Shown here in pieces: positions 24,172 to 29,532 of a stretch of 34,474 nucleotides of DNA. Below the pieces are notes generated by a model that saw only the letters and a list, made by a program, of their open reading frames with translations, did not search any database and was not told the origin of the DNA. Origin of the DNA: Hydrogenobacter sp. Lineage in GTDB: Bacteria > Aquificota > Aquificia > Aquificales > Aquificaceae. Position 1 is the first letter of the stretch, and each line of letters starts with the position of its first letter. Location of the stretch: positions 1 to 34,474 of the forward strand of contig JAPYWJ010000012.1 of assembly GCA_028276405.1 (NCBI GenBank). Reading direction: 5' to 3'. The position numbers and the translations under genes are program-made.

Positions 24172-25502
24172 GAGTGTTTATCTTTGCAATACTTAATGGC
24201 GTTTTGCTTTATCTTCCCTTTTCCCGCTACGAGCTTTGGTTTTTAATCCTTCCTGCACTTTTAATGCTTTTGAAGACTCCAAATCACAAGCATTACTTTT
24301 TAGCAGGCTTTACCTTCTTTTTCATGTCTTTGAAATGTGTCAACATAGCAAGCATACAATACGGAGGTGTTAATCCCTTTCTGGCTTACGCTTTGTTTTC
24401 CGTCTTTGTCCTTTTCCTTACCCTTTATCAAATGAACCTACCCTTGATGTTATGGAAAAAGCTAAGCGCTGAAAGGTTATGGACCTTACCCATCTTTTAC
24501 TCTCTGTTTGAGGTAATAAGGTCTTATCTACCTTACGGTGGTTTTCCTTGGCTCCTAGTGGGTGAGATGTCTGCAGACATGCCCATTATAAAGTATTCAC
24601 TGCGCTTCTTTACCGTTTACGGTGAAAGCCTTCTCCTATGGTACATAGCTTACTTTCTCTTTAAAAGAAAAGCATTACCACTACTTTCTTTACTGCTGTT
24701 TGTTTTTTTGACGGGTTTGTATGCTAAACATAAGCTTTTAAAAGAGCTTAGCTCTGCAGTTTCCATAAAGGTAGCCTTAGTGCAAACAGCCATACCTCAG
24801 GAAGACAAACTCAGCGAAAAGAGTTTTAAAAAACATACAAAAGAGATGCTCTCTTTGGTAAGGTCTGCTCTAAAGGAAAAGCCTGATCTGATAGTGCTCC
24901 CAGAATCCGCTTTTCCTTTCTTTTTTTCTGATGAATTTGACAAGGACAGAAACGAGATGTTTGAACTTAGTTTCCAAGCGCCTCTGCTGGTGGGTCTTAT
25001 AGACATAAGGGAGGGTGTCAAACCGTACAACTCTGCCTATTTAATAAAGGATGGTCAATTAGTAGGCTACTACGACAAGATAAGACTTTTTCCCATTGGT
25101 GAGTATGTACCCTTCCCTTTTGCTTTCTTGAAAGATGTTTTTTCCGCGATAGGTGGCATAGACTACACACCGGGCAAAATTTGGAAACCTCTTACTTATA
25201 AAGACATAAGAGTAGCTACCCCCATCTGTTTTGAAGTAGCTTATTGGGACTTAGTTAAAAAACTATCAAAAGAAGCAAACCTTATAGCAGTTATCACTAA
25301 CGATGGGTGGTTTAACAACAGCGACTGCACCCACCAACACTTTACTTGGGCAAGAGTAAGAGCCTTAGAGAACGCAAAGTTTGTCCTTTGGATAAACAAT
25401 TCAGGAGACACAGCAGTGATAGACCCCTCAGGGAAGGTGCTAAAAAAATTACCATACATGAAAAGAGGCATCCTTATATATGAGGTTAAGCTGTTAGGTT
25501 AG
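24168..25502 (+). CDS. lnt: Apolipoprotein N-acyltransferase
   Basis: The 444-residue protein acylates the N-terminal Cys of lipoproteins in the inner membrane. Residues 1-190 hold about five to six membrane segments. The nitrilase-like domain follows with Glu246 (VLPESAFPF), Lys304 (YYDKIRLFPIGEYVPFP) and Cys354 (TPICFEVAYWD), the catalytic triad in the usual order, plus NDGWF. The protein ends soon after the nitrilase domain, without the last membrane helix present in E. coli Lnt (512 residues). The start overlaps truB as ATGA. The stop overlaps the convergent PLD-HerA gene by 4 bases. Confidence 0.94.
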   Translation: MRVFIFAILNGVLLYLPFSRYELWFLILPALLMLLKTPNHKHYFLAGFTFFFMSLKCVNIASIQYGGVNPFLAYALFSVFVLFLTLYQMNLPLMLWKKLSAERLWTLPIFYSLFEVIRSYLPYGGFPWLLVGEMSADMPIIKYSLRFFTVYGESLLLWYIAYFLFKRKALPLLSLLLFVFLTGLYAKHKLLKELSSAVSIKVALVQTAIPQEDKLSEKSFKKHTKEMLSLVRSALKEKPDLIVLPESAFPFFFSDEFDKDRNEMFELSFQAPLLVGLIDIREGVKPYNSAYLIKDGQLVGYYDKIRLFPIGEYVPFPFAFLKDVFSAIGGIDYTPGKIWKPLTYKDIRVATPICFEVAYWDLVKKLSKEANLIAVITNDGWFNNSDCTHQHFTWARVRALENAKFVLWINNSGDTAVIDPSGKVLKKLPYMKRGILIYEVKLLG

Positions 25503-27373
25503 AGTTCTATACTTACTAGCATGCTGAAAGGGACTGCAATACCACTGAGGAAGAGTGTTCCAGGTCTTAAGGAGGGCAAAAGCCTGAGGAGTTCCATCTG
25601 CCCTTCTCCGAAAAATACAGAAACTGCATCAAGGTCGTTTTTGGTTATAAGCCTGAAAACTGCCTGAGTGTTCAGCTGAGAAAGTATGTACTTACTTATA
25701 TTAGCAGGCCTCTGGGTTATGGCTATAAGACCAACACCAAACTTTCTACCTTCTAAAGCTATCCTTTTTGCCATTAGGTAAGACAAGTTTTCTCTGCCAA
25801 AAGGTACATCTAAAGCACCCCTCTCTGGAGCAAAGTTATGAGCTTCTTCAAGTATCACAAGTCTTTTTTTGCCATCAAGCCTTGAAAGTATAAAAACCTC
25901 CTTCATGAGTAATCCTGCCATGTTTATTCTGGCATCAAGGTTGAGCACATCTTTAAAGTCAAATATAACTATATTCTTGTTTGAGCTCAGCCCCTTAAGA
26001 AGCATAAGGTAAACATCTTTCTGATTTTTTACAGAGGCAGAACCAAAATCCCGCATAATAGTGTTGAGGAAATCCTCTACATGGCTCTTTAAAGAGGCAG
26101 GAGCTGATGAAATAAGAAGGTCCTCCAAGTTCATCTCTTTGTAGCATATAAGCTCAAGGTCTGGTTTGAGATGCTTTCTGAGGTTTGTGAAGAATGCTTT
26201 TTCTTCTGTTGTTCTTTCTTCTAAGCCTATACCGTAGGTCCTAAGTATGTCTTTTAGGTCTTCTGCTTGAATAGGAAAGAGGGTATAAGGGATCTTTATA
26301 TACTCTATGCTTTCTTTATTCACTTTTAGTTTCTCGTAATACTCGCCAAAAACATCGATAACGAAAAACTGAATTCCTTCGTTTTGTGTGTGCTCTATAA
26401 GCCTCCTGATAAATGTGGTCTTACCCGCTCCAGTAGTGCCTATTACTGCCATATGCATACTAGACACCTTTGTTATATCTATATAAACATCAATGTCTGT
26501 GTTGAGCAGTTTTCCTACAAAGGACTTTTTTTCCATAGGGTATCCAGAAAGGTTCATACTCATGATCTTCCGCATGTCTGGATCATCACCTTTTAATCTC
26601 AGAAGTTGTGTTCCAACTTTCAAAGGTTTTAAGGGTACGCCAAAATAACTCTCTTTTTCTTCTTCTTTGATCTTCCTATACTCACACATAACCTTTATTT
26701 CACCTATTCTTAAGTTTCCTGTTTCGTTGGCGTAAGCTTTCAGAAAAGCTATAAGCCAGTCCTTATCTGCAGCCCTTACCCAAAAAGTACTTTCTTCTAA
26801 GCTTTGGGTCTTTACTGTGGTTAGCTTACAAAGTAAAATTCCTTTTTCCGTTGGTGTTTTAAGAAAGCACTGTTCTGGAAGGTCTTCAAGTAGCAAGACA
26901 CGAGATGATAGGGAGTTTTCAGAGGAAAGGACCAATGCGACTGTATCTGGCTGTATCTCTTCAGATTCATCTTTTAGCACTTGGTAAAGGAGAAGAAGTT
27001 CCTTGAGTTTAATAGGGTCTGTGATCTCAACAACTGCTTCAAAGTTCCCCCGCTGTGTTCCTGCATAAGTGAGGTTAGCAGAACCTACAAAGGCTTTACT
27101 GTCATCGATCACAAGGAACTTGGCGTGAAGCCTTGGGTTTAAGTAGATTTTCCCTTTTACATTTCTGACCGCTCTGAACACCCTAAAATCAGTAATGTCC
27201 ATGTCCTTTTTCTCTCCCGCCCTAAGAAAGACCTCTACTTTCACGCCCTGTTTGATACCTTCCAGAAGGTCTTCAAGTATGTCTCCGTTAATCCAAGCAG
27301 ATACTATCTTTACACTTTCCTGAGCGGACTGCAGTGCCTTTTTTAGCTCTTGTATGAGCTCATTACCTTCCAT
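25499..27373 (-). CDS. Fusion of phospholipase D-type nuclease domain and HerA-like ATPase
   Basis: I do not recognise a named family for this 624-residue protein. Residues 1-130 are a single PLD-type domain with one HKD motif: His83, Lys85 and Asp90, then GSAN at 97-100. About 140-300 is a linker that may include a HAS-like beta barrel. About 300-624 is a HerA/FtsK-class ATPase with Walker A GTTGAGKT (312-319), a VIDVFGEY segment (338-345) like the HerA D-hGEY motif, Walker B RLVILEEAHNF (504-513) and AITQRP (551-556) with the probable sensor and arginine finger. HerA pumps DNA for a nuclease, normally separate NurA. Here a nuclease-like domain is built in. It is the last gene of the ilvE operon, 4 bases after the GNAT gene. 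Confidence 0.8.
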   Translation of the reverse strand: MEGNELIQELKKALQSAQESVKIVSAWINGDILEDLLEGIKQGVKVEVFLRAGEKKDMDITDFRVFRAVRNVKGKIYLNPRLHAKFLVIDDSKAFVGSANLTYAGTQRGNFEAVVEITDPIKLKELLLLYQVLKDESEEIQPDTVALVLSSENSLSSRVLLLEDLPEQCFLKTPTEKGILLCKLTTVKTQSLEESTFWVRAADKDWLIAFLKAYANETGNLRIGEIKVMCEYRKIKEEEKESYFGVPLKPLKVGTQLLRLKGDDPDMRKIMSMNLSGYPMEKKSFVGKLLNTDIDVYIDITKVSSMHMAVIGTTGAGKTTFIRRLIEHTQNEGIQFFVIDVFGEYYEKLKVNKESIEYIKIPYTLFPIQAEDLKDILRTYGIGLEERTTEEKAFFTNLRKHLKPDLELICYKEMNLEDLLISSAPASLKSHVEDFLNTIMRDFGSASVKNQKDVYLMLLKGLSSNKNIVIFDFKDVLNLDARINMAGLLMKEVFILSRLDGKKRLVILEEAHNFAPERGALDVPFGRENLSYLMAKRIALEGRKFGVGLIAITQRPANISKYILSQLNTQAVFRLITKNDLDAVSVFFGEGQMELLRLLPSLRPGTLFLSGIAVPFSMLVSIEL

Positions 27374-27377
27374 AGCT

Positions 27378-27863
27378 TTAATTATCTATCTTTTTAACCA
27401 TCCTTATCCAATAATTGAACCTGTCTTTGCTTTCAAAACCAAGAGATCTGTAAAAATTCATAGCGGGATAATTTTCCTCACCCACCCACAACTCAGCAGT
27501 GTCAAGACCTCTGCTTTTGAAGTACTCTATTGCTTTCTCTACAAGAGCTTTCCCTATACCTTTGTTTCTGTAATTTGGAAGTACAACGATCTCATGAATG
27601 GCACCTACTACTTTACCCTCCCTTTTGCTAAACCAGTTTCCATCACTGGCTACAAAACCAACAATCTTACCGTTATGTCTTGCTACAAATATGCCTGCTA
27701 CATCTCTTCTAAAAAGCCAGTTCAAATAAGCCAGCACATCGTCCATGTGCGTGTAAGAATATTCCTCAAGCCCCTTATAGCTTTCTAGATATATCTGTGC
27801 AAGTTCTTGCATGTCTTTTTCCGAAGCTTTCTCTATGGAAAAATCTACCGTTTGCCTCTTCAT
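27378..27863 (-). CDS. GNAT family N-acetyltransferase
   Basis: The 161-residue protein has the GNAT fold in order: an N-terminal strand-helix (FSIEKASEKDMQELAQIY), the beta-bulge strand IHEIVVLPNYRNKGIGKAL holding the acetyl-CoA pyrophosphate loop (RNKGIG, about residues 106-111), and the C-terminal NFYRSLGFE helix-strand found in RimI-like members. It transfers an acetyl group to an amine; the target, whether a protein N terminus or small molecule, is not visible. It overlaps lolA by 4 bases (ATGA) upstream and is 4 bases from the PLD-HerA gene downstream. Confidence 0.88.
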   Translation of the reverse strand: MKRQTVDFSIEKASEKDMQELAQIYLESYKGLEEYSYTHMDDVLAYLNWLFRRDVAGIFVARHNGKIVGFVASDGNWFSKREGKVVGAIHEIVVLPNYRNKGIGKALVEKAIEYFKSRGLDTAELWVGEENYPAMNFYRSLGFESKDRFNYWIRMVKKIDN

Positions 27864-28462
27864 AACTTTTTAACCTTTACACCTTGCGGTAGCTTGATCT
27901 TGAATAAGTCCTCGGAAGGTAAAAAGTTACTGCTCATACTCAAAAATTCTACAGTGGTAGTTGTCCCTTCCTTGTCCTCAACTTTCAAAGACTTTACATT
28001 GTACTCTTCGTCTACTTCTAAGTATACCCTGTAAAACTCATCGTCCTTTAGCCTTGGCTTGAGAACAAGAGTGGTGCTCCTGCCGTTTTTTATCTCTCCT
28101 ATTGGTTCAAAAACCTCGCTTAAAGGTTTAGACAAAAGAAAAAGGGCTTCTACCACTGCGGACCTGTTGTTCTCCACTCTATCTATGATGGCGCTTTCTT
28201 CCTGCGGATAGTAAATGAGTATGTTCTTGCTGTCAGACACTATGATCATGCGCTCAGGCTGTTCATACTCTATCCTAAACTTCCCCCCCTTCTGAGCGTA
28301 AAAGAAGCCTTTGGATATGTCTGGTTTAGGATACCAAGAGTATGACACCTTCTGCACAAAGGATACTCTTAAGGTTTTCATCTGCTCAAGTTTTTTTTCC
28401 AAAAGATGAAAGGTCTGCGCAAAAGACAACAGGGGAAAGATGAGCAATACAAGGTATCTCAT
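27860..28462 (-). CDS. lolA: Outer-membrane lipoprotein carrier protein LolA-like
   Basis: The start chosen is ATG 28462, which overlaps the upstream stop as ATGA and begins a clean signal peptide (MRYLVLLIFPLLSFAQ). A longer frame from 28507 would bury it. The 200-residue protein has the LolA pattern: LEKKLEQMKTLRVSFVQKVSY near the N terminus, KGFFYAQKGGKFRIEYEQPERMIIVSDSKNILIYYP, then a C-terminal half-barrel. LolA ferries lipoproteins across the periplasm to the outer membrane. It complements lnt and the two predicted lipoproteins in this window. Confidence 0.85.
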   Translation of the reverse strand: MRYLVLLIFPLLSFAQTFHLLEKKLEQMKTLRVSFVQKVSYSWYPKPDISKGFFYAQKGGKFRIEYEQPERMIIVSDSKNILIYYPQEESAIIDRVENNRSAVVEALFLLSKPLSEVFEPIGEIKNGRSTTLVLKPRLKDDEFYRVYLEVDEEYNVKSLKVEDKEGTTTTVEFLSMSSNFLPSEDLFKIKLPQGVKVKKL

Positions 28463-29532
28463 AGCCTGTGAAACCTCCTTAAAAAGGATAAGATAAGCTC
28501 GTACCAAACAATGACCATATCCCAGTTTATAGCCTCTGTGTTGTCATAGAAAGTGTGATTTATGGTAAAAGGTTCAGAACTCAAAAAAAGAGTCTGCACG
28601 CCTTTTTTTTTGAAAGGTATGTGATCGCTTTTTGCAGAGTTTTTAATAACAAAAGGTATGTCTATTTTCATTTCCTGAGTGTGCCTTAAAAACATCTCTG
28701 TGATGCGCTCACCGTTATATCCTTCTGCGTCTTTGTATATGACTGCTGGATGGTGCCAACCTATAGTATCCAAATTTATGCAGTAGTAAGTGTGTTTTAT
28801 ACCTTTATTCACATGGAAATTTGAACCTTCAAGTCCTAACACTTGGGCATCAGTAAGGAGAAACCTTATCCTATAAGGTATGTTGAAGTTTTTCTTGAGT
28901 TCGTCCGCCAAGAAAAGTAGCAGTAAAAAACCTACTCCGTTATTTACCGCACCAAACACCTCGGGTGCAGTATCCATATGTGCGGTTAAGTAAATAATTG
29001 GACCTCTTCCCACCTCAAAAAGTATGTTGCTACAGAGGATCTTCTCTTTCTTGGTCTTTACCGTGAGCTTCACATGAGCATCTTCTATGTGCTGAACATC
29101 CTCAAGCTTTATGTTTACGACGGGAATACTTGCTGTCTGTATACCACCATAGTAGTAAAGGTTAATCCTGTCCAAGTAAGTGATGCAAGCCTTTACACCC
29201 TCCCCCTTAAAGTCTGTACCTTCTTCTGATACTCTAAGAAGAGCCATATCTCCCTCTATGGGTTCTTTTTTCACATAGCCTTCGTAAACTCCACTTGGAC
29301 TTCCTGAGTAAGGAACAGCTTTTATGATAGTATTCCCAACTTTAAGGGTTGCCTCTACCGGAAGAAGTTTTTCTATATAAAAAAACTCTTCCCAGTATTT
29401 TATTCCTCTGTGTCTTAGCCACTTTTTTACGCTCCTCTTTGCAGTAGCGTTTCCCTCGCTTCCAGATAATCTGTTTATCCTTAAGATTTCATCTGCCAAG
29501 TGCTGAAATTCTTCCAAAGTTTCACTTCTCAT
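28459..29532 (-). CDS. M28 peptidase-like protein with altered active site
   Basis: The 357-residue protein has an M28 (aminopeptidase S/Y) fold with an inserted PA-like segment (about 65-160). The first zinc motif is intact (AHMD, His185-Asp187), as are Asp255 in NLDTIGW and His326 in NHTFYDN. But the bridging Asp of the usual GAxDN motif is Asn197 (GAVNNG). The usual Glu-Glu pair before GLxGS, general base and metal ligand, is Gln230-Val231 (DAQVLGLEGS). No signal peptide is seen, so it is probably cytoplasmic. It could be a non-catalytic relative or have a new activity. It overlaps ilvE by 11 bases and lolA by 4. Confidence 0.8.
   Translation of the reverse strand: MRSETLEEFQHLADEILRINRLSGSEGNATAKRSVKKWLRHRGIKYWEEFFYIEKLLPVEATLKVGNTIIKAVPYSGSPSGVYEGYVKKEPIEGDMALLRVSEEGTDFKGEGVKACITYLDRINLYYYGGIQTASIPVVNIKLEDVQHIEDAHVKLTVKTKKEKILCSNILFEVGRGPIIYLTAHMDTAPEVFGAVNNGVGFLLLLFLADELKKNFNIPYRIRFLLTDAQVLGLEGSNFHVNKGIKHTYYCINLDTIGWHHPAVIYKDAEGYNGERITEMFLRHTQEMKIDIPFVIKNSAKSDHIPFKKKGVQTLFLSSEPFTINHTFYDNTEAINWDMVIVWYELILSFLRRFHRL

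Follow-up and report, generated by a model that had tools for sequence, protein, structure and literature searches.

A PLD Nuclease Domain and a HerA-Class ATPase in One Protein Chain Recurrent among Aquificota

The stretch of Hydrogenobacter sp. DNA analyzed here (34,474 nt, henceforth the window) codes for a protein, PLD-HerA, in which a phospholipase D (PLD)-type domain precedes a HerA-class ATPase in a single chain. It is best regarded as a HerA-nuclease machine distinguished by the PLD nuclease carried in cis, and it probably works as a self-contained device that trims or destroys DNA ends, whether for repair or as a weapon against invading DNA. We give about an even chance to the reading that it is a double-strand DNA translocase of the HerA class with its own nuclease, acting as a housekeeping DNA-end processor in Aquificaceae and redeployed for defense in a sister clade. 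For the copy in the window, repair or turnover of linear DNA, at roughly even chance, is favored over defense, which is a possible but less probable role.

Sequence and Architecture of PLD-HerA

A sequence-only reading of this DNA had proposed an open reading frame at 25499-27373; this is a real gene, on the minus strand and 624 codons long (Table 1), and the plus strand across the same interval is full of stops. The gene follows one for a GNAT acetyltransferase at a distance of 4 nt, at the end of a tight run of ilvE, M28 peptidase, lolA, and GNAT genes, and the convergent lnt overlaps it by 4 nt (ilvE, M28, lolA, and lnt are named by sequence recognition). GNAT and PLD-HerA likely share one transcript. 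Among these window neighbors there is no adjacent gene for a SIR2 or DUF4297 effector, and no DISARM partners (drmA/drmB helicase, methylase) were recognized within the window.

Table 1. Coordinates of PLD-HerA, its domains, and its upstream neighbors in the window
Feature	Position	Strand	Evidence and remarks
PLD-HerA gene	25499..27373	minus	624 aa, ATG start, stop included; full-length homologs known
PLD nuclease domain, single HKD, N-terminal (residues 1-138)	26960..27373	minus	H83, K85, D90, G97 S98 N100, E112; PLDc_2, PDB profile matches, 74 homologs
Beta-rich middle domain (residues 139-285)	26519..26959	minus	AF2 secondary structure; HAS-barrel assignment by position and fold, tentative
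HerA-class RecA-like ATPase (residues 286-624)	25502..26518	minus	Walker A 312-319, D340/E344, Walker B E509 E510, R543, TQRP 553-556; DUF87
GNAT acetyltransferase gene, upstream neighbor	27378..27863	minus	GNAT by Pfam
lolA, upstream	27860..28507	minus	name from sequence recognition

The two halves of the protein are recognized by Pfam well above the cut-offs, PLDc_2 at residues 9-123 (E 4e-17, 62.6 bits, cut-off 27) and DUF87 at residues 285-492 (E 4e-23, 83.2 bits, cut-off 23.2), which confirms the proposed fusion of an N-terminal PLD domain to a C-terminal HerA ATPase. The core has the features of the HerA branch, i.e., DUF87, Walker A, a Walker B with EE, and the conserved arginine/QRP region, and the N-terminal part has HxKxxxxD, GSxN, and a downstream E, with one HKD copy per chain. 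All the motif positions given in the sequence-only reading (H83, K85, D90, GSAN 97-100, Walker A 312-319, VIDVFGEY 338-345, Walker B 504-513, and TQRP 553-556) are correct. In a set of 74 non-identical full-length homologs, H83, K85, D90, S98, N100, and E112 are invariant in the PLD part, and so are G312, G315, G317, K318, D340, E344, E509, E510, R543, Q554, R555, and P556 further on; G97 is kept in 73 of the 74, and position 319 is T or S. Against two congeners, the overall dN/dS is 0.13 and 0.09, and the PLD and HerA parts give similar values of around 0.1; in comparisons with more distant congeners, dS is saturated. Hence, both domains are under purifying selection, and the invariant motifs together with the low dN/dS indicate that PLD-HerA is not a chance open reading frame.

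Matches to the HerA equivalogs of NCBIfam are far weaker than those that define these families (82-83 bits for NF040819 and NF042943, with cut-offs of 970 and 800), and by its sequence PLD-HerA is HerA-like but belongs to a distinct subfamily, outside the named HerA families. The DrmC model NF038319 is not reached either (50.7 bits versus a cut-off of 133). An AF2 model built from PLD-HerA and 36 relatives (mean pLDDT 86.8, pTM 0.81) predicts a PLD domain at 1-138, a beta-rich domain at 139-285, and the HerA core, the middle domain being confident except in the loop 196-218. The best PDB matches of this model are the HerAs of Sulfolobus (4d2i) and of T. kodakarensis (9x1m, a HerA-NurA complex), followed by defense HerAs. 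For those HerA chains the TM-scores normalized to the query are ∼0.5-0.56, values that would be expected if neither the PLD part nor the angles between domains match. Going by its position and fold in the model, the middle domain, on which the sequence-only reading was silent, is tentatively equated with the HAS barrel of HerA; no match to PF09378 (HAS-barrel) is among the Pfam families shown for PLD-HerA, and a canonical HerA (L073) has one.

A profile of the PLD part matches 7e0m, mitoPLD (4ggj), NucT (6ehi), Nuc (1byr), and larger phospholipases in the PDB. Single-HKD enzymes of the Nuc type act as dimers. With Nuc, NucT, and mitoPLD among its matches, the earlier argument that one HKD per chain implies two chains per active site is plausible. 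The PLD superfamily also acts on lipids and RNA, and the presence of phospholipases and mitoPLD among these matches could suggest a domain that works on one of these, in a chain that is not a DNA nuclease; we regard this as very improbable, given a single short HKD domain of the Nuc/NucT/DrmC type that is fused to a DNA pump.

Distribution and Phylogeny

The sequence-only reading had called for a search for PLD and HerA in one chain, and this uncovered a recurrent family, found in most genera of Aquificota and sporadically elsewhere. In a set of 136 Aquificota genomes, PLD-HerA is present, full-length or as fragments, in most genera of four families, once the matches that correspond only to canonical HerA are separated by coverage and identity. 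Outside this phylum, the same single-chain layout is found in bins of WOR-3, in one Archaeoglobaceae bin, and in one bin labeled Thermotogota, and a longer variant of 730-786 aa occurs in Desulfobacterales, Synergistetes, and unassigned bins; all these members come from metagenome bins, in which the taxon label of a single contig may be wrong. The contig scan retrieved homologs with an alignment-based query, a single-sequence query having given nothing. PLD-HerA is sporadic in WOR-3, where 5 of 147 genomes of the phylum have substantial matches and some of these matches are fragments. In viral and phage collections PLD-HerA was not found, the matches there being to the pump part only.

The tree of the Aquificota copies, a quick tree with SH-aLRT support only, separates clade A (Aquificaceae and Hydrogenothermaceae, including the copy of the window) from clade B (Desulfurobacteriaceae and some copies of Aquificaceae). 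Decaying copies also occur: in two Hydrogenothermaceae loci (G078:C22:262131-263901 and L130), PLD-HerA is split into several short frames.

Genomic Contexts

Copies of clade A are mostly single, and several genera keep one in most of their species. The order lolA-GNAT-PLD-HerA is conserved in four congeners and in one related genome (G050), and other clade A genera have different housekeeping neighbors (coaE, or a glycosyltransferase and a homoserine dehydrogenase, by sequence recognition). The GNAT was considered as a functional partner, since the genus, G050, and one clade B genus have it next to PLD-HerA, yet almost every genome of the family has this gene, in most cases away from PLD-HerA; we therefore judge the adjacency incidental and of little functional information. 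Genes of the same GNAT family adjoin PLD-HerA in L078, L102, and L123, as well as in the window at 27378-27863, in both clades and on opposite sides.

Among Hydrogenothermaceae (family f2), the genes pldHerA, obgE, a small gene, nurA, and a comEA-like gene follow one another on one strand in L047, and L049 has the same order without the small gene; the NurA of the pldHerA-obgE-nurA operon was confirmed by Pfam. Since obgE and nurA are also adjacent at Aquificaceae (family f1) loci without PLD-HerA (L062, L063, and L072), their association looks older, PLD-HerA having joined it later. Two WOR-3 bins have recJ upstream of PLD-HerA, at a distance of 33-38 nt (Pfam run on L125).

The comEA-like helix-hairpin-helix gene, the weak matches of PLD-HerA to the CedD and CedB profiles, and the existence of HerA-like DNA-transfer pumps could point to a pump for DNA transfer or competence, like TdtA of Thermus or CedB, in which PLD would be the processing nuclease. 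We find this improbable: the comEA-like gene adjoins nurA and not PLD-HerA, no transfer genes were recognized at the loci examined, and the nearest structures are HerAs of nuclease and defense complexes.

Clade B is found in other surroundings. PLD-HerA closes a type III-A csm operon with Cas10/Csm1 (L041), follows RAMP and Cas6 genes (L038), or stands beside an N6 methyltransferase (L035), in one case together with RmuC (L040). The idea that a housekeeping setting argues against a defense island thus holds for the clade of the window and does not extend to its sister clade, which occurs in CRISPR III-A, restriction-modification, and plasmid contexts. We infer that clade B is mobile and used in defense settings.

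Some individual loci deserve mention. In a Desulfurobacteriaceae bin (L114:8011-13959), PLD-HerA is directly followed by genes for a 601-aa trypsin-like protease and a 722-aa DUF87 protein and by a further gene; the protease and this second HerA possibly form a separate protease-HerA defense cassette. Plasmid ece1 of A. aeolicus carries a clade B PLD-HerA that is broken and has been annotated as two proteins (NC_001880.1 26335-28270, L184), as well as PIN and AbiEii-type genes. In the Archaeoglobaceae bin (L124:867-5184), the gene of an 806-aa Piwi-domain protein (Argonaute) overlaps the end of PLD-HerA by ∼30 nt. A general link with Argonaute was rejected, Piwi being present in 5 of 35 genomes and absent from the window genome, which leaves a local association.

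Such contexts lend some weight to an antiviral device of one or few genes, in which the HerA pump and its in-cis PLD effector would degrade invading DNA and which would now be resident in Aquificaceae. The clade B loci with csm, cas6/RAMP, methyltransferase and RmuC, and protease/HerA genes, the plasmid copy, the Argonaute overlap, and the patchy presence within genera of family f5 all agree with it, and the best relatives in PADLOC are MkoB and DrmC for the PLD part and defense HerAs for the pump, although PADLOC contains defense models only, so that a HerA match there is no proof. The clade of the window, however, sits amid housekeeping genes, is mostly single copy, is kept across species with a local order conserved in the genus, and evolves under purifying selection, and viral or phage relatives with the PLD part were not found. 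We hold the antiviral reading to be a real possibility, but not the leading one.

NurA, Other HerAs, and Nucleases

The window genome, which is 99.96% complete, encodes no DUF87 protein other than PLD-HerA. NurA is encoded on a different contig (G000:C16:16670-17374, PF09376 E 1e-16), so that the question of a herA-nurA pair, raised by the sequence-only reading, is answered by a NurA and no separate HerA; adjacency of nurA is lacking in this genome, and the two genes are linked, through obgE, only in Hydrogenothermaceae. The gene immediately before nurA on the same contig encodes a protein of 238 aa that matches DUF4350 weakly (L060:5812-6528). Canonical HerA of ∼520 aa was not seen in Aquificaceae, a family where NurA is kept. 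A search for PF12705 (AddB/RecB-type nuclease) found nothing in the window genome, and the control search matched in 12 of 14 reference genomes. The window genome also has a 971-aa SMC-like open reading frame compatible with SbcC/Rad50.

Among Aquificaceae genomes at least 90% complete, counted by hand, 33 have both NurA and PLD-HerA (G002 with a fragment only), 5 have NurA only, 5 have neither, and none has PLD-HerA only (Fisher p 2.6e-4, uncorrected for kinship). This co-occurrence is only suggestive, because of the kinship among the genomes and because about two events account for the joint absences. The main reading draws on the retention of NurA, the operon links with nurA and recJ in relatives, the lack of a PF12705 match, and the syntenic housekeeping context. 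Against it, the five near-complete genomes with NurA alone indicate that NurA does not need PLD-HerA, two f3 bins have PLD-HerA without NurA, the contexts of clade B are defense-like, and an N-terminal PLD domain could block the docking of NurA.

Families f2 and f5 also have canonical HerA, which may be the true partner of their NurA; as a neighbor of nurA it was ruled out in both, the genes not being adjacent. A second HerA of ∼600-650 aa lies beside a NurA-like protein of 582-606 aa in several genomes (G115:C47:4161-7263, G119:C59, G131:C2, and G010:C1:366559-369465), and the two look like a separate pair.

Discussion

By analogy with the families to which its domains belong, PLD-HerA would couple ATP-driven DNA translocation by a ring with phosphodiester cleavage by HKD. 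Six chains would form the ring, and ATP hydrolysis would pull double-strand DNA through it. In solved complexes, the HAS domain provides the face on which NurA (PMC12977600) and DUF4297 (PMC11291478) dock, and DUF4297-HerA is a double-strand DNA nuclease whose nuclease domains dimerize on the HerA ring (PMC11291478). Because PLD is fused N-terminally to the domain at the position of this face, we infer that the PLD domains may sit on the HAS side, where NurA or the DUF4297 and SIR2 effectors dock on other HerA rings. There they would pair, as a single HKD needs two chains, perhaps as the three dimers per hexamer that the sequence-only reading put forward, and cut DNA emerging from the pump. 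In Aquificaceae, its resident role would be to process DNA ends as a housekeeping function or to destroy linear DNA, either in parallel with NurA or jointly with it, and the ring may contact NurA. HerA from D. radiodurans binds RecJ, which it stimulates, and NurA competes (PMC4663267). The original alternative of a repair or resection machine or an antiviral device remains plausible on both counts, given the housekeeping context of one clade and the defense contexts of the other.

PLD-HerA resembles several known systems without coinciding with any. It shares with HerA-NurA (Sulfolobus 4d2i, T. kodakarensis 9x1m, and D. radiodurans) the HerA-fold ATPase, the thermophile setting, a NurA in the same genome and, presumably, a nuclease at the HAS-side face; its nuclease, however, is a PLD in the same chain, whereas NurA is a separate protein of different fold, and its gene lies on another contig of the window genome. 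In DUF4297-HerA and SIR2-HerA (Nezha), too, the HAS face of a HerA ring bears an effector enzyme, and the DUF4297 nuclease domains dimerize, but these systems have two genes and other effector folds, the DUF4297 complex has twelve effectors per six HerA, and the gene of the window lies outside a defense island. DrmC (DISARM) and MkoB (Mokosh) have the closest PLD domains of the defense library by profile, but lack the HerA fusion, and the other genes of their systems are absent here. Nuc and NucT are sequence relatives in the PDB with the same short single-HKD domain, but stand alone, without a motor. HerA and NurA homologs of A. aeolicus have been mentioned earlier, with no mention of a fusion in the part of that article cited here (PMC4641729). 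We found no published description of the PLD-HerA fusion in the literature searched, which excludes the 2004 HerA-FtsK survey (Iyer et al.).

In the HerA-nuclease machines that we found in the literature, the nuclease is supplied by other chains. A single-chain form spread over a phylum is a compact system for studying the delivery of DNA from a pump to a nuclease, and it places one protein architecture in both housekeeping and defense settings. Some bacteria lack the known presynaptic recombination enzymes (PMC1193525), and PLD-HerA is a candidate for this step in them. A bolder proposal, which we consider rather unlikely, is that PLD-HerA is the missing double-strand-end processor of Aquificaceae, where no nuclease of the AddAB/RecBCD type was found: one ring pump would serve two unlike nucleases, its in-cis PLD and a NurA acting in trans, and its sister clade would have been drafted into CRISPR III-A, restriction-modification, and Argonaute loci.
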